Source: Actinacidiphila bryophytorum
GTDB lineage: Bacteria > Actinomycetota > Actinomycetes > Streptomycetales > Streptomycetaceae
Assembly: GCF_016916835.1 (NCBI RefSeq)
Contig: NZ_JAFFIX010000010.1
Span: 124,001 to 188,000 of the forward strand
Length of the DNA: 64,000 nucleotides
Reading direction: 5' to 3'
A program made the translations under genes and the position numbers. Shown here one piece after another: positions 13,641-21,893 of this stretch (positions within the stretch are counted from its first letter, which is position 1; each line of letters opens with the position of its first letter). The notes below the pieces were generated by a model. It was not told where the DNA came from, searched no databases, and saw only the letters and a program-made list of their open reading frames with translations.

Positions 13641-15305
13641 TCAGAAGCTGAACGGCGACTCCAGTACGTACGCGCATTCGGTGTAGATGTACCCGCTCCT
13701 GAACTGGTGGGTGTCGGCGATGGGCGTCGCGGAGTCGTCGTCGTCGAGCGGCTTCTGCATGATGTACGACGTCCCGGTCGGCAGGTGCAGGGTCCGCTTG
13801 GCGTAGTGCTTGCCGGTGTCCTTGCACGCCAGGCTCTGGGCGAGCGAGTCGCTGGAGTAGCGCGAGCAGGCGCTGCAGCCCTTGAGGGTGAAGCTGCCGG
13901 TGACCGGGCCTGTGTAGAGGATCTGGACGGCGTCGGGGCTGTCGTTGGTGAAGGTGATGCTGATGGAGCCGCCGGAGCTGTTCGTGGGCAGCTTCTTGCC
14001 GGCCGCCGGCACCTTGGTGGCGATCTCGGCGGCGATGGCGACCTTGAGGGCGAAGGGCCGGTTCTTGTTGTGCGGGTACTTCGAGGTGAAGTCGTTCATG
14101 GTGGTGAGCGCCTCGTCGAAGCTGCCGCTCTTGTACTGCGACAGGCCGCAGTTGTACGTGCCGGTCTCGACGTACCCGTCGACCCGCTTGGAGTCGGCCT
14201 TGAGCGCGTCGGCGACGCCCGCCTTGTCGCCGGGCAGGTCGGCGGCGTTCGAGCCGAGGGTGCGCAGCTTCAGGGTGGTCCCGCACGGGTCCTTGCCGCC
14301 CAGACCCTTGGCGGTGCTGTCGATGTCCGCCCTGATCGCCGGTTCGACCTTGGCGGCCTGCGGCGACTTGGGGAAGGTGGTGAGCAGCTCGCCGAGCTTG
14401 CTCGTGTCGGTGGCGGCGTCCGCGGCGGGCGCGGTCATCTCGGTCATGCCGCACTCGTACAGCGAGGTCGCGAGCCGGTCGTCGGGCCAGCCGGCGAGCG
14501 AGCCGAGCGTCTTGCCGTCGATGTGCTGCGGCACCGTCCGCAGGTATTTGAGCGGCTCTATCGCGTCGCAGTACTTCTTCTGGTCGTAGGGGGTTCCGAC
14601 GGCCGTGTAGAAGGTCTGCATCCTGGCGGGCACCTGCTTGGCGGCCTTGGAGCCCGAGTGCTTGCTGTCCAGGTCCTGGTAGGAGCCGAGCGCGGAGCTG
14701 TAGTCGGACTTGGCGCTCTCGAAGGGCTTGGCCTTGGCGGCCTGCACCAGCTGGTCGGCCTTGTCGAGCCGGTCGAGCAGCATCGCCTGCGTGGCGTCGT
14801 CCTTGGCGCCGTCGTAGTAGACGACCGCGCCGGCCGGAACCGCGAGCATCACCAGGCCGAGCAGCAGCGCCAGCGGCGCCTGCGGCGGGAAGGACAGCCG
14901 GGTGCGCAGGCCGCGCAGCCCGCCGTGCAGGGCGGTCAGCACCAGGAACACCAGGTAGGTGACCAGCACCCCGCCGGAGACGCCGTCGGGGTCGGCGGGC
15001 AGCGCGCTGACCAGGAAGGCGCCGGTGCCGATCAGCGCCACCGCGAGTCCGATCCAGCGCCGGGTCAGCAGGTAGCCCAGGCCCAGGCCGCTGAGGTTGA
15101 GCAGGCCCACCGCGACCGCGCGCAGCGGGTCGGCCGGCTCGCGCGGGGCCGGCGGTGCGGCGGGCATCGGGGGCGGTCCGAAGGGCGGCGGGGGCGGGAA
15201 GCCGCCCGGCGGCGGCGGGTATGCGCCCCCCGCGGGCGGTGGCGGCGGTCCGAAACCGCCGCCGCCTGCGTGTCCGCTGTTCCCGCCCTGCTGGTCCCAG
15301 CTCAT
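13641..15305 (-). CDS. Proline-rich N-terminus membrane protein with large extracytoplasmic Cys-containing domain
   Basis: Protein of 554 aa, not recognised. Residues 1 to about 60 are Gly/Pro-rich and low in complexity (repeated PPPP blocks), like actinobacterial tails that interact with cell-division or envelope proteins. Several membrane segments follow (about 65-160, including LLNLSGLGLGYLL and LALLLGLVMLAVPAGAVVYY). The remainder is an extracytoplasmic helical domain with TPR-like spacing and paired cysteines (KKYCDAIEPLKYL, SLYECGMTEM, GTYNCGLSQYK), ending in a Cys-containing beta-rich domain (GCSACSRYS to YIYTECAYV). The ATG at 15305 has GGGGGG 6 nt upstream. The helical region could bind peptide or glycan. 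Nothing nearby fixes a function. Confidence 0.75.
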   Translation of the reverse strand: MSWDQQGGNSGHAGGGGFGPPPPPAGGAYPPPPGGFPPPPPFGPPPMPAAPPAPREPADPLRAVAVGLLNLSGLGLGYLLTRRWIGLAVALIGTGAFLVSALPADPDGVSGGVLVTYLVFLVLTALHGGLRGLRTRLSFPPQAPLALLLGLVMLAVPAGAVVYYDGAKDDATQAMLLDRLDKADQLVQAAKAKPFESAKSDYSSALGSYQDLDSKHSGSKAAKQVPARMQTFYTAVGTPYDQKKYCDAIEPLKYLRTVPQHIDGKTLGSLAGWPDDRLATSLYECGMTEMTAPAADAATDTSKLGELLTTFPKSPQAAKVEPAIRADIDSTAKGLGGKDPCGTTLKLRTLGSNAADLPGDKAGVADALKADSKRVDGYVETGTYNCGLSQYKSGSFDEALTTMNDFTSKYPHNKNRPFALKVAIAAEIATKVPAAGKKLPTNSSGGSISITFTNDSPDAVQILYTGPVTGSFTLKGCSACSRYSSDSLAQSLACKDTGKHYAKRTLHLPTGTSYIMQKPLDDDDSATPIADTHQFRSGYIYTECAYVLESPFSF

Positions 15306-15522
15306 GGCAAACCCCCCGAGAATTCGGTCCCCACCCACGGTTGAGCGCACGAACCGGCCCTGCCGTCCGCGCGCGAAGGCCCATTTATATCTGATGCACG
15401 ACAGGGCGTGCCGGTTGCGTCCGCCGGGGACGGAGATGCGGGGCCGCGGGGCCGGGAGCAAGCTGGGTGAGGGGGAGAACGAGTGGTGCGGGGCCGCACC
15501 CTCCCGACGCCGGGGAGTGATC

Positions 15523-17124
15523 ATGGGCGACACCGAGGTACTGGTGGTGGGGGCGGGTCCCGTGGGGCTGACCGCGGCGGTGGAGCTGCGCCGCCGGGGC
15601 GTCGGCTGCCGCATCGTGGACCGGCTCGGCGAGCCGCAGCCGTACGCCAAGGCCGTCGGCATCCAGCCGCGCACCCTTGAGGTGTGGGACGCGATGGGCC
15701 TGGTCCGCGACGCTCTCGACGCGGCGGTGCCGCTCTACGGCCAGCTCGGCTACGTCAACGGCGAGCCGCAGCCGCGTGTGGACCTGCGGCTGCCGCCCGA
15801 GGTGCCGTACGGATTCGCCGCGCTGCCCCAGTACACGACCGAGGCGCTGCTGACCGCGCACCTGGAGGCGTACGGCGGACATGTCGAGCGCGGCACGGAA
15901 CTGGTCGATCTGGAGCAGGACTCCGACGGGGTACGCGCCAGGCTCCGCACACCCGACGGCACCGAGACGGTCCAGGCCCGTTACCTGGTCGGCTGCGACG
16001 GCGCGCACAGCCGTACCCGCAAGGTGCTCGGTCTGGCCTTCGAAGGCGACGCCTTCCCCGAGGAGTACATGCTCGCCGACGTCGAGGTGGACTGGGACCT
16101 GCCGTCCGGCTACACCGTCCGCTCGGCCCACCAGGACGCCGGCGGCGCCACCGACGACCTGCTGGTGTGCGTCCCGCTGCCCGGGCGCGGGCGCTACCGC
16201 ATGTCCATGCTCGTCCCGCCCGAACTGTCCGTGACGGCGCCGGACGCCGAGGCCGCGCACGGCCTGGAGGCCGGACGCGCACCAGAACTGCGGCACGTCC
16301 AGGCCGTCCTCGACCGCCTCGCGCCCCGCCCCACCACCGCCCGCGACCTGCGCTGGTCCTCCGTCTTCCGCATCAGCCACCGGCTCGTCGAACGCTACGC
16401 CGCCGGCCGCGTCTTCCTCGCCGGCGACGCCGCACACATCCACCCGCCCACCGGCGCGCAGGGCATGAACACCGGCATCCAGGACGCGTACAACCTCGCC
16501 TGGAAACTGGCGCTCGCGACACAGGGCGTCGCCGCCGACGGCCTCCTCGACAGCTACCACGCCGAACGGCACCCCGTCGGCGAGGAGGTCGTCGCACGGA
16601 CCGTGCGGCACGCCCGCGAGGGCCTCGACCTCCAGGTGATGCGCGAAGCGCAGCTCCTGGTCCGCTACCGGGACAGCCCCGTCGTCACCGCCGACCCGGG
16701 ACCCGGTTCGCCGGAACCCCGGCCGGGTGACCGGGCGCCGGACTGCCGCGGGCTCACCGGGGACATCGCCGCGTACCCCGTGCGGCTCTTCGACCTGCTG
16801 CGCAGCTCGCACCACACGATGCTGCTGTACGCCGACGCGGCGGCGGCGCCGGAGGAGCTGCGGGCCTGTGCCACGGCGGCGCGGGCTGCCGCCCACGGCC
16901 GCCTCAACGTTTTCGCGGTCCTCGCGCCAGGGGCTCCCGGGGACGGGATCGGGGTGCCGCGCGTCCACGACCGCGACGGTTCCTTCTCCCGCACGTACGC
17001 TGCGCGGGCTCCCGAGGCTGTCCTCGTCCGCCCCGACGCCCACATCTCCGCCCGCTTCCCCCACCCCGCCCCTTCCCCCCTGACCACCCACCTGACCACG
17101 ACCTTCGCCCCGCCCCCGGGCTGA
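15523..17124 (+). CDS. FAD-dependent aromatic monooxygenase (PheA/TfdB, rifampicin-monooxygenase type)
   Basis: Class A flavin monooxygenase of 533 aa using NAD(P)H and oxygen to hydroxylate aromatic rings. GxGxxG is at residues 9-14 (VVGAGPVGLTAAVEL), the DG motif in YLVGCDGAHSRTRKVLG, and the GD motif in GRVFLAGDAAHIHPPTGAQGMNTGIQDAYNLAWKL (from about residue 300). The C-terminal thioredoxin-like domain is present (from about residue 400, PRPGDRAPDC onward). The nearest relatives are antibiotic-tailoring and rifampicin-type monooxygenases. It is a single gene between unrelated neighbours, so either xenobiotic or antibiotic modification or catabolism is possible. The ATG at 15523 follows GGGGAG. 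Confidence 0.86.
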   Translation: MGDTEVLVVGAGPVGLTAAVELRRRGVGCRIVDRLGEPQPYAKAVGIQPRTLEVWDAMGLVRDALDAAVPLYGQLGYVNGEPQPRVDLRLPPEVPYGFAALPQYTTEALLTAHLEAYGGHVERGTELVDLEQDSDGVRARLRTPDGTETVQARYLVGCDGAHSRTRKVLGLAFEGDAFPEEYMLADVEVDWDLPSGYTVRSAHQDAGGATDDLLVCVPLPGRGRYRMSMLVPPELSVTAPDAEAAHGLEAGRAPELRHVQAVLDRLAPRPTTARDLRWSSVFRISHRLVERYAAGRVFLAGDAAHIHPPTGAQGMNTGIQDAYNLAWKLALATQGVAADGLLDSYHAERHPVGEEVVARTVRHAREGLDLQVMREAQLLVRYRDSPVVTADPGPGSPEPRPGDRAPDCRGLTGDIAAYPVRLFDLLRSSHHTMLLYADAAAAPEELRACATAARAAAHGRLNVFAVLAPGAPGDGIGVPRVHDRDGSFSRTYAARAPEAVLVRPDAHISARFPHPAPSPLTTHLTTTFAPPPG

Positions 17125-17240: not shown

Positions 17241-19193
17241 TCAAGGAGGGGGCGCCAGCATGTGGAGGCGCAGCGCCAGCTGGAGTTCGAGCGCTCGCTC
17301 GGGCTCATTCCAGCCCGAGCCGAGCAGCGCCTGGATGCGGTCCAACCGCTGAACCACCGTATTGACATGAAGGTGCAGCTCATCCTTCGTACGGGTCAGC
17401 GTGCCCCCGCACGCGAAATACGCCCCGAGCGTACGGACCAGCTCCGTCCCGCGCCTGGCGTCGTATTCGAGGAGCGGCCCGAGCGTCGCGGTGACGAAGG
17501 ACCCGACGTCCCGCTCGTTGCCGAGCAGCACCCCGAGGAAGCCGAGTTCCGCGGCCCCGGCCCCGTCCCCGACGCGGCCGAGCGCGCACAGGGCGCGCAG
17601 ACACCGCACGGCTTCCGCGTGCCCGTCGGCGAGGGCCTGCGGCCCGGACGCGGGGCCTGCGGCGGCGACGGTGACGGGGGCGCCGACCAGCTGGGTGAGC
17701 TGGCCGGCGGCGGCGCGGGCGACGGCACCGGGTGCGGCGCCGTCGTGGGGCAGCAGCAGCACCACCGTGCCGGTACGTTCCGCGCTGATGCCGTCGCTGC
17801 CGAAGAGGTAGCGGCCCGCGGCGGCGGGCAGCCGGTCCTGGGAGCCGGCCGCGGCCTGGGCGACGAGCACCAGGCAGGGGCGGCTGAGGTCGACGCCGAG
17901 CCGCCGGCCGCGGACGACGAGGCCGACGGGGTCGCGCCCCGGCGCGGTGAGCAGGTCGGTGACGAGTTCGCCGCGTACCCGGTTCTCGGTCTCGGCGACG
18001 GAGCGGCTGAGCAGCAGCAGGAGTGCGGTGACGACGCCGGCGCGTTCGAAGAGCCGCCGGTCGGAGTCGTCGAGCCGGTCGCGGCCGTGCAGCACCATGC
18101 TGCCGAGCAGTTCCTGGCCGGCGAGGACCGCGCAGGTCCAGCGCCCGTCGCGGTGTTCTGCCCTGGCGGTGGGTGCGGCCCTGCCTGCGGGGGCGGGGGC
18201 GTGGGCGCGCGGCTCGGCGTCGAAGGGGGCGCCGGCGCGGCCGACGGCGGCCAGTGTGCGGCCCTCGGGGTCGTGGATGGTGATGGCGCCGTCGAGGAGT
18301 TCGGCGACGGCGGCGGCGACCTCCGACAGGTCGCCGCCGCGCAGCACCAGGTCGGTGAGCCGGTCGTGGGCCTCCTCGGCGCGCTGCATGGCGGCGGCGT
18401 GCTCGCGGATGACGGCGCCGGCCTGTGCGAGGTCGGTGATGGCCCGGGCGGTGTCGATGGCGATGGCGGCGTGTGCGGCCAGCGAGCACAGCAGCGCGAC
18501 CTCGTCGGGCGAGAAGGGGCGCGGGGTGCGGTCGGCGGCGAAGAGCACCCCGATGACGTCGCCGCCGGAGGCGGCGCCCCCGGCGCCCCCGGCGCCGCCC
18601 CTGGCGCCGAGCAGCAGCGGCACCCCGAGGATGCCGACCAGGCCTTCGTCCAGGACGCCTTCGTCGATGGAGCCGGTGTGCCGGAAGCGCTCGTCGGTGC
18701 GGTAGTCGGGGGTGGCGTAGGGGCGGGCGGTCTGGGCGACGAGGCCGCCGAGCCCGTCGCCGTAGCTGAGCCGCAGGTTCTGGAAGAGCGGTGAGACCGA
18801 CCCGTCGGTGACCCGCATGTAGGTGTCGCCCGCCTCGTCGTCGCGCAGGGTGAGGTAGGCGGTGTCGGTGCCGAGCAGCATCCGTACCCGGCGGACGATG
18901 GACTGGAGCACCGCGTCCAGGTCGCGGAGCGCCGCGAGGTCGCCCGCGGTGTCGAAGAGCGCGGCCAGTTCCGACTCCCGGCGGCGGTGCTGGCGCAGGG
19001 TGCCGCGGACCCGCAGGGCGGTGGCGGTGGCCTGTTCCAGCTCCGCGAGGTCGGCGGGACCGGCCCCGCCCGCCCGCGCCTGTGCGGCCAGCGCTCCGTA
19101 CGCCTCGGCCGGTGCGTCCTCGGCGATGAGTTCGAGCAGCCGCCGCAGCGGGCGGGCGACCGGGGCGGGGGCGGGGGCGGGGCTGTCTGCCAT
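17241..19193 (-). CDS. GAF-domain / PucR-CdaR-type transcriptional regulator
   Basis: Regulator of 650 aa. A coiled region at about 60-80 precedes a GAF domain at about 90-240 (VQSIVRRVRMLLGTDTAYL through HAAIAIDTARAI). The C-terminus carries the PucR/CdaR helix-turn-helix (about residues 590-640: TKDELHLHVNTVVQRLDRI). It follows the 3-hydroxybutyrate dehydrogenase gene by 83 bp on the same strand, and the PHB depolymerase gene diverges from that pair. It is therefore a good candidate for the activator acting at the two similar promoters at 20112-20347. The GAF domain may sense 3-hydroxybutyrate or a related acid; that is inference. ATG at 19193. Confidence 0.82.
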   Translation of the reverse strand: MADSPAPAPAPVARPLRRLLELIAEDAPAEAYGALAAQARAGGAGPADLAELEQATATALRVRGTLRQHRRRESELAALFDTAGDLAALRDLDAVLQSIVRRVRMLLGTDTAYLTLRDDEAGDTYMRVTDGSVSPLFQNLRLSYGDGLGGLVAQTARPYATPDYRTDERFRHTGSIDEGVLDEGLVGILGVPLLLGARGGAGGAGGAASGGDVIGVLFAADRTPRPFSPDEVALLCSLAAHAAIAIDTARAITDLAQAGAVIREHAAAMQRAEEAHDRLTDLVLRGGDLSEVAAAVAELLDGAITIHDPEGRTLAAVGRAGAPFDAEPRAHAPAPAGRAAPTARAEHRDGRWTCAVLAGQELLGSMVLHGRDRLDDSDRRLFERAGVVTALLLLLSRSVAETENRVRGELVTDLLTAPGRDPVGLVVRGRRLGVDLSRPCLVLVAQAAAGSQDRLPAAAGRYLFGSDGISAERTGTVVLLLPHDGAAPGAVARAAAGQLTQLVGAPVTVAAAGPASGPQALADGHAEAVRCLRALCALGRVGDGAGAAELGFLGVLLGNERDVGSFVTATLGPLLEYDARRGTELVRTLGAYFACGGTLTRTKDELHLHVNTVVQRLDRIQALLGSGWNEPERALELQLALRLHMLAPPP

Positions 19194-19276: not shown

Positions 19277-20104
19277 TCAGTGCGCCGTCCAGCCGCCGTC
19301 GAGCGGGAGCGAGGTGCCGGTGATGTAGCCGGTGTGCGGGGAGCACAGCCACAGGGCGGCGGCGGCGACCTCGACGGGTTCGATGAGCCGCTTGATCGCG
19401 GTGCGGTCCAGCATCACCTGGGCGACGACATCGGCCTCGGGGATGCCGTGGGCGAGCGCCTGCGTGGCGATCTGGTCCTCGACGAGCCGGGTGCGGACGT
19501 AGCCGGGGCTGATGCAGTTGCTGGTGACGCCGAACTCGGCGCCTTCCAGGGCGACGGTCTTGCTGAGCCCTTCGAGGCCGTGCTTGGCGACGACGTACGC
19601 GGACTTGTAGGGGCTGGCGCGCAGGCCGTGCACCGAGGAGATGTTGACGACCCGTCCCCAGCCGCGGGCGTACATGTGCGGCAGGTTCCTGCGCAGGATG
19701 CGGAAGGGCGCCTCGACCATGACGCGCTGGATCAGCGTGAAGCGCTCCGGCGGGAACTCGTGGACGGGGGCGATGTGCTGCAGGCCCGCGTTGTTGACGA
19801 CGATGTCGGCGTCGGCGGGCAGCGTGTCGACCGCGCCGGGCTCCGAGAGGTCGGCGACCACGCAGGTGCCGCCGGTCTCGGCGGCGGCGTCCTTGGCGCC
19901 CGCCGCGTCCCGGTCGACGACGTAGACGTGCGCGCCGGCCGCGGCGAAGGCCACCGCGCAGGCCCGCCCGATGCCTGCGGCGGCGCCGGTGACCAGGGCG
20001 GTGCGGCCGGCGAGGAACGGCCCGCCGGCCGGTACCGCGGCGGTGGCGTCGTCCGGTGGCGCGGCGGGGACCTGGTCCCGGCCGGGGCGCTGAGTGCTCT
20101 CCAT
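19277..20104 (-). CDS. D-3-hydroxybutyrate dehydrogenase (short-chain dehydrogenase/reductase)
   Basis: NAD-dependent SDR enzyme of 275 aa that oxidises 3-hydroxybutyrate to acetoacetate. The cofactor motif TGAAAGIGRACAVAF (about residues 40-54), NNAG (about 108), the catalytic Ser in VVNISSVHGLRASPYKSAYVVAKHG and the YxxxK pair are all intact. The sequence GLQHIAPVHEFPPERF and the C-terminal GTSLPLDGGWTAH closely match the 3-hydroxybutyrate dehydrogenase subgroup. It is divergent from the extracellular PHB depolymerase and probably co-transcribed with the downstream regulator, giving a complete route from polymer to acetoacetate. The ATG at 20104 lies 8 nt from the predicted -10 box, so the message may be leaderless or nearly so. 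Confidence 0.9.
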   Translation of the reverse strand: MESTQRPGRDQVPAAPPDDATAAVPAGGPFLAGRTALVTGAAAGIGRACAVAFAAAGAHVYVVDRDAAGAKDAAAETGGTCVVADLSEPGAVDTLPADADIVVNNAGLQHIAPVHEFPPERFTLIQRVMVEAPFRILRRNLPHMYARGWGRVVNISSVHGLRASPYKSAYVVAKHGLEGLSKTVALEGAEFGVTSNCISPGYVRTRLVEDQIATQALAHGIPEADVVAQVMLDRTAIKRLIEPVEVAAAALWLCSPHTGYITGTSLPLDGGWTAH

Positions 20105-20111
20105 GGCGGCC

Positions 20112-20144
20112 ACGCTAGGAAGGTTGCGGCAGGGCGCACACGTG
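20112..20144 (-). promoter_or_regulatory. Promoter of the 3-hydroxybutyrate dehydrogenase gene: CACGTGT-N18-CCTAGCGT
   Basis: Read on the minus strand, CACGTGT (20138-20144) is followed by 18 bp and then CCTAGCGT (20112-20119), which holds a TAGCGT -10-like box. An inverted repeat GGGCGCA/TGCGCCC (20132-20138 and 20148-20154) flanks the CACGTGT. The divergent depolymerase promoter has the same two boxes with identical spacing. Confidence 0.6.
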
Positions 20145-20314
20145 TCCTGCGCCCATACTTCCCCCGCCTGTGGTGGCGTCCGCACCCATGTCGCGGGGGC
20201 CGCCGCGGCGGCACGGTGAGCGGGCCCGCGGCCCCCGGCCGGCGGCCACCCGCGGGGGCCGCGTACCGCAATGGCCGTGTCCGCCACTTCCGGGGCGGGG
20301 GCATGGCGGTCCTT

Positions 20315-20347
20315 CACGTGTCTGCGGCCACAGCGCGGTCCTAGCGT
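20315..20347 (+). promoter_or_regulatory. Promoter of the PHB depolymerase gene: CACGTGT-N18-CCTAGCGT
   Basis: CACGTGT at 20315-20321, exactly 18 bp, then CCTAGCGT at 20340-20347. The TAGCGT part is a plausible -10 box, placing CACGTGT over the -35 position where an activator could substitute for a poor -35 hexamer. A good ribosome-binding site (AGGAG) precedes the ATG at 20382. Confidence 0.6.
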
Positions 20348-20381
20348 CCAACGCCAACGGATCCCCCCATAGGAGTGCGCC

Positions 20382-21893
20382 ATGAACAGCACACCACTCC
20401 CCCGCCCCCGAGGAAAAGCGCACCGCCCCACCCCTCTCCGCCGCCGCGTCGCCGGCGCGGTGACCGGGGTGCTCGCGCTGGTCGCGGCCTGTCTGGGCGC
20501 CGTCGCGGGCGCGGAGCCCGCCGCGGCTGCGGGCCTGACCCAGGTGACGTCCTTCGGCTCGAACCCGGGCAACCTCGCGATGTACGAGTACGCGCCCGCC
20601 GGGCTGCCGGCCGGCGCCCCCGTGGTGGTCGCGCTGCACGGCTGCACGCAGTCGGCGAGCGACTACTTCGCCCACTCCGGCTGGCAGAAGTACGCCGACC
20701 TGTGGGGCTTCGCCCTGGTGCTGCCGCAGACCAGCGCGTCGAACAACTCGCTGTCCTGCTTCAGCTGGTTCGACCCGGCCAAGGACACCCGCGGCAAGGG
20801 CGAGGCGGCCTCGGTCGTCTCGATGGTGTCGCACGCGGTCACGCAGTACGGCTCGGACAGCGGCCGGGTCTTCGTCACGGGTCTTTCCGCGGGCGGCGGC
20901 ATGACCGCCGACCTGCTGGCCGACTATCCGGACGTCTTCGCGGGCGGCGCGGTCGACTCGGGCCTGCCCGCGCAGTGCGCGACCTCGCAGACCGCCGCGT
21001 CCACCTGCCAGTACGGCAGCGTCAACCTGACGCCCGCCCAGCTGGGCGACAAAGTACGGGCCTCCGACCCGGGCTACTCGGGGCCGTGGCCGCGGGTGGC
21101 GATCTGGCAGGGCGCCTCCGACTACACCGTCTACCCGGTCAACGGCACCGAGCTGCGCGACCAGTGGACGAACGTGTGGGGCATCGGGCAGACCGCGTCG
21201 TCCACCCAGACGCTGCCGGGCGGCACCACGCTCAGCGTCTACGACGACCCGTCGGGCAGGCCGGCGGTGCAGCTCTACCAGATCTCCGGCATGGGCCACG
21301 GCCTGGCCGTCGACCCGGGGTCCGGCACCGAGCAGTGCGGCACGACCGGCTCGTACTACCTGGACACCATCTGCTCCAGCTACTACACCGCCCGCTTCTG
21401 GGGCCTCGACGGCTCGACCCCGCCCGGCGGCGGTGGCGGTACGCTCCCGGCGCCCACCGCCGTGACCGTCGCCGGCACCACCGACAGCACCGTCTCGCTG
21501 AGCTGGGGCGCGGTCACCGGCGCGGCCTCCTACCGGGTCTACCGCGGCGGCACCCTGGCCGGTTCGCCGACCGGGACCTCCTTCACCGACACCGGGCTGA
21601 CGGCGGGCACGGCGTACAGCTACACGGTCGCGGCGGTGGACTCCTCCGGCGCGGTCGGCGCGGCCTCGTCCGCGGTGGCCGCGACCACCACCGGCGGTGG
21701 CGGATCAGGCTCGGGCCAGTGCTTCACCGACAACAACTACAACCAGGTCGCGGCGGGCCGCGCCCACCAGAGCGGCGGCTACACGTACGCGGACGGCTCC
21801 GACCAGAACATGGGCCTGTGGAATCTGTTCACCACCCACACCCTGAAGGAGACCGGCGCGGACTACTACGTCATCGCGGACGGCACCTGCTGA
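20382..21893 (+). CDS. phaZ: Extracellular poly(3-hydroxybutyrate) depolymerase
   Basis: Secreted serine esterase of 503 aa that depolymerises PHB granules outside the cell. A signal peptide (basic to residue 25, hydrophobic to about 44, cleavage after AAAA near 50) leads to a PHB-depolymerase esterase domain. The oxyanion segment is VALHGCTQSASDY, the nucleophile lies in the lipase box GLSAGGGM (Ser about 169), the Asp in QGASDYTVYP (about 247) and the His in GMGHG (about 306). A fibronectin type III linker (about 357-440) and a short C-terminal substrate-binding domain (447-503) complete the classic three-part architecture. The divergent 3-hydroxybutyrate dehydrogenase supports the substrate. 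Feruloyl esterases share the fold but not the C-terminal domain. Confidence 0.9.
   Translation: MNSTPLPRPRGKAHRPTPLRRRVAGAVTGVLALVAACLGAVAGAEPAAAAGLTQVTSFGSNPGNLAMYEYAPAGLPAGAPVVVALHGCTQSASDYFAHSGWQKYADLWGFALVLPQTSASNNSLSCFSWFDPAKDTRGKGEAASVVSMVSHAVTQYGSDSGRVFVTGLSAGGGMTADLLADYPDVFAGGAVDSGLPAQCATSQTAASTCQYGSVNLTPAQLGDKVRASDPGYSGPWPRVAIWQGASDYTVYPVNGTELRDQWTNVWGIGQTASSTQTLPGGTTLSVYDDPSGRPAVQLYQISGMGHGLAVDPGSGTEQCGTTGSYYLDTICSSYYTARFWGLDGSTPPGGGGGTLPAPTAVTVAGTTDSTVSLSWGAVTGAASYRVYRGGTLAGSPTGTSFTDTGLTAGTAYSYTVAAVDSSGAVGAASSAVAATTTGGGGSGSGQCFTDNNYNQVAAGRAHQSGGYTYADGSDQNMGLWNLFTTHTLKETGADYYVIADGTC

Follow-up and report, generated by a model that had tools for sequence, protein, structure and literature searches.

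The intergenic gap between bdhA and phaZ in Actinacidiphila bryophytorum raises the question of which regulator reads its two divergent promoters, and which other genes come under the same control. A string search of the window (the whole 64,000-nucleotide stretch of DNA analysed here) found CACGTGT-N18-CCTAGCGT with zero mismatches at 20112-20144 on the minus strand and at 20315-20347 on the plus strand. The two copies are divergent and both lie inside the gap, which spans 277 bp from ATG to ATG (20105-20381). No match to this string occurred across 100 dinucleotide shuffles of the window, and the whole genome (8.05 Mb, 96 contigs) contained no CACGTGT/CCTAGCGT pair besides these two when spacers of 16-20 were allowed. 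The identical divergent box pair with its N18 spacing, reported in the initial annotation, is exact in the window and unique in the genome.

The gene bdhA (19277..20104, minus strand) was assigned as a probable 3-hydroxybutyrate dehydrogenase of the SDR family from NCBIfam matches and the closest solved structures. Its product scored 259.8 bits against PRK12429 (cutoff 258) and 298.1 bits against TIGR01963, just under the cutoff of 307, and structure comparison returned D-3-hydroxybutyrate dehydrogenases as the nearest solved proteins. According to NF050058 and Pfam, phaZ (20382..21893, plus strand) belongs to the secreted type-1 short-chain-length PHA depolymerase family. The product scored 296 bits against NF050058 (cutoff 150), which places it with the extracellular dPHAscl type 1 enzymes, and comprises a catalytic domain with a GLSAG lipase box, a fibronectin III linker and a C-terminal domain (Pfam Esterase_PHB, fn3). 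Because solved members of this depolymerase family include feruloyl and acetylxylan esterases, PHB as the putative substrate rests on the family model together with the regulon context.

The gene of a GAF + GGDEF_2 + PucR-type HTH_30 regulator (17241..19193, minus strand) was identified by Pfam, and is proposed as the activator from co-occurrence and linkage. A gap of 83 bp separates it from bdhA, which lies upstream in the same orientation, so it is probably co-transcribed with bdhA and autoactivated. The HTH_30 domain (PF13556) covers residues 585-643 (63.7 bits, cutoff 27), and the GGDEF-like domain (PF17853), which occurs in about half of the PucR-type family, covers residues 421-534 (54 bits, cutoff 24.5). 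PF07905, the PucR N-terminal domain, was not among the Pfam matches of the regulator and a GAF domain (73.3 bits) was found instead; the protein was therefore classed as a GAF-PucR variant of the PucR type (HTH_30), and not as a PucR orthologue. The regulator's own genome contained no second full-length homologue. Convergent with the regulator gene is a gene for an FAD-dependent aromatic-ring monooxygenase (PF01494; window 15232-17124, plus strand), at which no operator was seen.

A total of 80 orthologous dehydrogenase loci were retrieved, nearly all from Streptomycetaceae plus one from Actinomadura, and 76 dehydrogenase promoters were aligned with the -10 element as anchor (effective number 42). 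These promoters contain two dyad-symmetric blocks at fixed distances, a distal repeat with the consensus CATGG-N9-CCAYG centred at about -76 and a proximal repeat with the consensus TRTGK-N9-MCRTG centred at about -43. The -10 consensus CCTASCGT follows downstream of both repeats, and a -35 consensus is absent. In a symmetry scan these two centres ranked top, with mean arm matches of 3.4 and 2.9-3.2 of 5 (background 1.46); here the proximal repeat could be read in either of two registers, N9 centred at -43 or N7 centred at -44. The distal and proximal repeats are 32-33 bp apart, which corresponds to three helical turns and the same face of the helix, and their symmetry extends upstream to -85 and ends downstream at -34. 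The phaZ promoters of the window and about 15 relatives have both repeats as well, pointing the other way; three of the automatic depolymerase-promoter alignments had been drawn to the adjoining dehydrogenase operators, and these three were judged by eye. Across Streptomycetaceae the tandem-repeat layout is conserved, as it is more weakly in other Actinomycetes families.

On the minus strand of the gap, the -10 element CCTAGCGT of bdhA occupies 20112..20119, and its TA and T are invariant in the anchored alignment. The promoter alignment places the proximal predicted operator of bdhA (TATGG-N9-ACGTG, centre about -43) at 20139..20157 and the distal one (CATGG-N9-CCACC, centre about -76) at 20172..20190. 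For phaZ, on the plus strand, comparison of depolymerase promoters places the distal predicted operator (AATGG-N9-CCACT) at 20270..20288 and the proximal one (CATGG-N9-ACGTG) at 20302..20320. The -10 element CCTAGCGT of phaZ lies at 20340..20347, from the string match and the same comparison, and the sequence has a ribosome-binding site, AGGAG, at 20371..20375. Both CACGTGT boxes (20138-20144 for bdhA, 20315-20321 for phaZ) overlap the proximal predicted operator of their gene. The reading of CACGTGT as the operator box has to be replaced: as judged from the alignments it forms the right arm of an imperfect 19-bp inverted repeat and is not the operator itself, and each promoter has two such repeats.

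The exact CACGTGT-N18-CCTAGCGT string was present in 10 of 35 same-genus genomes (own included), mostly at the bdhA-phaZ gap, and in just 9 of the 76 dehydrogenase promoters. The commonest hexamer of the proximal arm was CACATG. CACGTG as a stand-alone palindromic operator was rejected, because its G is a lineage variant (17 CACGTG versus 31 CACATG among the 76 promoters) and the symmetry spans 17-19 bp. Orthologous gaps were checked for absence of the box, and the CACATG variant was found at the same distance, so that the paired-promoter proposal was not refuted. The -10 octamer of bdhA ends 7 nt ahead of the ATG, a distance of 6-8 nt in 76/76 orthologous promoters. As transcription would start on or next to the ATG, the bdhA mRNA is predicted from this position to be leaderless; phaZ, in contrast, has a leader with its AGGAG.

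The own genome was scanned by covariance-model search with R1, a sequence-only model of the whole promoter layout. Scores were 55.8 bits for bdhA, 41.7 for phaZ, 27.1 for a site at C5:17466 and 20.2 for a site at C5:16373, and the next match scored 16.1 bits. The C5:17466 site stands ahead of a complete Liv-type ABC importer operon (substrate-binding protein, two ATPases and two permeases), and its promoter reads CACATGT-N18-CCTACGGT, with the same spacing as bdhA and phaZ. Noise was rejected as an explanation of this match, given the same N18 spacing and the fact that the same genes adjoin the regulator in other genomes. The C5:16373 site precedes an alpha/beta hydrolase gene; its score is low and no clear -10 was matched, and its assignment as a real regulon site is less certain than that of the ABC promoter. 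The importer and the hydrolase were found by motif alone on another contig; that their genes sit next to the regulator gene elsewhere provides independent support. A self-contained regulon at the locus, as originally suggested, does not agree with these data, since the five-gene importer and the hydrolase carry the same predicted operators elsewhere in the genome.

In relatives, R1 sites likewise precede the genes of the dehydrogenase, depolymerase, ABC importer and hydrolase; others stand ahead of an MHS symporter gene (TIGR00883, 440 bits), and one ahead of the gene of a secreted hydrolase without a family name. Genes for 3-oxoacid CoA-transferase lie between hydrolase and importer in three loci (L148-L150), and in L170 these genes (scoAB) are divergent from the regulator gene with operators in between. 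The target set makes up successive steps of PHB use: depolymerisation, import, splitting of oligomers, oxidation to acetoacetate and activation to acetoacetyl-CoA.

Two further observations concern R1 sites in other genomes. The secreted alpha/beta hydrolase encoded at L163:2904-4160 (minus strand), downstream of an R1 site, has a GWSKG box, no NCBIfam match and a weak Pfam match. Homologues of it are encoded close to the regulator in L169 and L225, and we regard it as a candidate for a PHA or polyester depolymerase not yet described. Orphan MHS symporter promoters were seen at L157:1436-1517, L158:1207-1285, L165:1432-1507 and L167:3930-4011. They retain both operators and about 33 codons and all break off at nearly the same base (..GAGTGGTACGAC); in three of the four cases a shared sequence of 30-80 nt comes next; the L165 orphan then enters an IS110-type transposase-like reading frame, as recognised by eye. 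Small-RNA promoters were rejected as an explanation, the sites being the symporter promoter plus about 33 codons, and they look like recurrent site-specific insertion or element-borne fragments.

Among 160 genomes of the family, an R1 site and the PucR-type protein were found together in 105, each without the other in 11, and neither of them in 33 (Fisher p ~1e-15, a value not to be taken literally for related genomes). With a looser search the regulator, in fragments, turned up in 10 of the 11 operator-only genomes, and in 9 of the 11 regulator-only genomes a weaker operator was found beside the regulator. The remaining two regulator-only genomes were a contig cut at the promoter and a 42% paralogue without operator. 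After correction, with the neither-group partly re-searched at looser thresholds, both were present in 124 of the 126 genomes with either, one further genome being operator-only (G108) and one cut off. As the regulator gene is mostly linked to bdhA, some of the co-occurrence comes from the two being inherited together, and genomes of relatives are not independent samples. A further line of evidence is dissociation of the two genes: the dehydrogenase was kept and the regulator orthologue absent in eight genomes, and operators were absent in seven of the eight (G011, G068, G067, G078, G122, G023 and L079, the last of which appears identical to G064). In G011 (locus L232) the -10 CCTAGCGT and the distance to the ATG are intact, and the repeats alone are gone. 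The single clear exception to the pairing is G108, a complete one-contig genome with no regulator orthologue, in which the bdhA promoter (L156; G108:C1:1585310-1585383) has an intact proximal operator. Co-occurrence and dissociation across genomes back the GAF/PucR regulator as partner of the promoters, as the initial annotation had suspected.

Outside the family, regulator orthologues (42-62% identity) from other Actinomycetes families adjoin the dehydrogenase in 19/19 loci retrieved, and the clusters often also include a depolymerase, hydrolase, importer or symporter. Most of the loci have operators ahead of bdhA or the symporter. The R1 sites found here are weaker, mostly 12-25 bits, and are for the most part located immediately before the dehydrogenase or symporter gene. 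In L170, L174 and L177 the regulator has no adjacent bdhA, and operators are still present before the symporter or at scoAB. GAF-PucR paralogues at L178:5276-7114 and L231:5410-7278 (37-42% identity) have no bdhA or operator nearby, and at the 37% paralogue locus, L231, neither dehydrogenase nor operator was found; these paralogues point to a second regulator group. One same-genus genome has two copies of the regulator and its operator site, some 16 kb from each other (G009:C146:111561-113447 and 127850-129736).

These distributions bear on who reads the repeats. A different transcription factor, encoded elsewhere, might bind them, with the PucR-type gene a passenger of the dehydrogenase operon, and the operator of G108 would agree with this. 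We consider it unlikely, since operators disappear with the regulator in genomes where bdhA stays, L232 has lost the repeats and kept its -10 and ATG spacing, the regulator loci without adjacent bdhA retain operators, and binding to tandem repeats of this kind has a precedent among PucR-type activators (PMC7652997). A chance resemblance between two GC-rich promoters would draw on the shortness of the boxes and on nothing else; with 0/100 shuffles, uniqueness in the genome and conservation across genera and, more weakly, families, we regard it as extremely improbable.

The fixed 18-bp spacing and the conserved -10 in both promoters would also suit an alternative (ECF-type) sigma factor, for which CACGTGT and CCTAGCGT would be the -35 and -10 elements. 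The conserved upstream part, however, consists of two dyad repeats reaching -85 and not of a single -35 motif, and the -10 (CCTASCGT) persists in L232 where the repeats are lost, which indicates that it is read independently of them; at the locus itself no sigma gene was seen beside these genes. An ECF-type sigma factor is thus very unlikely. That the GAF-PucR regulator itself acts as an inducer-released repressor, or in a dual role, has a precedent in Bacillus subtilis PucR, which is both activator and repressor (PMC7652997). The repeats, however, lie upstream of -33 and leave the -10 and the start free at promoters with no -35 consensus, a typical activator position, and most characterised PucR-type regulators are activators (PMC7652997), so a repressing or dual role is unlikely here. 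The activator-type promoter position suggested in the initial annotation is supported by the same features.

In Gram-negatives, 3-hydroxybutyrate use or PHB metabolism is regulated by PhaR/AniA and, in pseudomonads, by HbcR, a sigma54-dependent activator of 3-hydroxybutyrate catabolism; these are regulator types unrelated to the PucR type and are set apart from the present system by description. A close parallel in promoter layout is GabR of Corynebacterium glutamicum, a PucR-type activator of gabTDP whose two 21-bp binding repeats lie immediately upstream of the -35, both being required for strong binding (PMC7652997). GabR and the present regulator share a PucR-type HTH, two repeats directly upstream of -35 and, as predicted here, the control of uptake and catabolism of one compound through adjacent genes. 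They differ in that GabR lacks a GGDEF-like domain (PMC7652997) and has 21-bp repeats, GABA as its compound and one operon, whereas here the compound would be 3-hydroxybutyrate and the units are several and dispersed. Two repeats three turns apart, ending at -34 and without a -35 consensus, fit a GabR-like mode.

AdeR, PutR and PucR of B. subtilis resemble the regulator as PucR-type proteins with a GGDEF-like domain and catabolic targets, but have other substrates and operators, AdeR and PutR binding palindromes of 24 and 17 bp (PMC7652997). Against the AdeR model the regulator gave a low-scoring local match (34 bits, cutoff 700). Among solved structures the only PucR-type chain matching it was 9f80, MabR (Rv2242) of Mycobacterium tuberculosis (PMC11617747); MabR shares the PucR-type C-terminal region but controls mycolic acid synthesis and has a globin-like N-terminal domain in place of the GAF domain (PMC11617747). 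The phaZ product resembles the tested PhaZ of Streptomyces ascomycinicus (PMC3741128) in its signal peptide, GLSAG catalytic domain, fibronectin III domain and C-terminal binding domain; this likeness is one of domain order, and PMC3741128 does not treat regulation. In the open literature, the field covered by our search as distinct from subscription journals, we found neither an account of this regulon nor one of how PHB depolymerases are regulated in Streptomyces, and none of how actinomycetes turn PHB degradation on.

Taken together, sequence comparison makes it highly probable that these genes form a regulon for the use of external PHB and 3-hydroxybutyrate, governed by a GAF/PucR-type activator at class II promoters and including a leaderless bdhA mRNA. 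The repeats, their fixed spacing, the target set and both co-occurrence with and dissociation from the regulator are computational results; we infer binding, activation, inducer and transported substrate as follows. The regulator would bind both tandem repeats as an oligomer, its GAF domain sensing an inducer that, from the pathway, is probably 3-hydroxybutyrate or a derived metabolite. Once bound, it would act as a class II activator, bringing RNA polymerase to a -10 without a -35 consensus. Switching on would yield the secreted depolymerase, the importer (a Liv-type ABC system here, an MHS symporter in most of the relatives), the alpha/beta hydrolase, which probably acts on oligomers, the dehydrogenase and more regulator, with 3-oxoacid CoA-transferase joining the set in relatives.

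For a wider proposal we see about an even chance: that a so far undescribed GAF-PucR activator runs a conserved PHB and ketone-body scavenging regulon in many Actinomycetes, comprising depolymerase, a Liv-type ABC importer of 3-hydroxybutyrate or its oligomers, oligomer hydrolase, dehydrogenase and CoA-transferase, and that its operator flags unknown plastic-degrading genes such as that of the L163 secreted hydrolase. If this were true, uptake of 3-hydroxybutyrate or its oligomers would be an unexpected substrate class for Liv-type ABC transporters. The proposed GAF-PucR PHB regulon would add to the PucR-type catabolic regulons and is testable, because its regulator is named, its operator defined and its targets listed; it also offers a candidate 3-hydroxybutyrate-responsive promoter. 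For the study of bioplastic degradation by actinomycetes, it provides a promoter-based route to unknown depolymerases and to importers of bioplastic breakdown products that goes beyond sequence alone.
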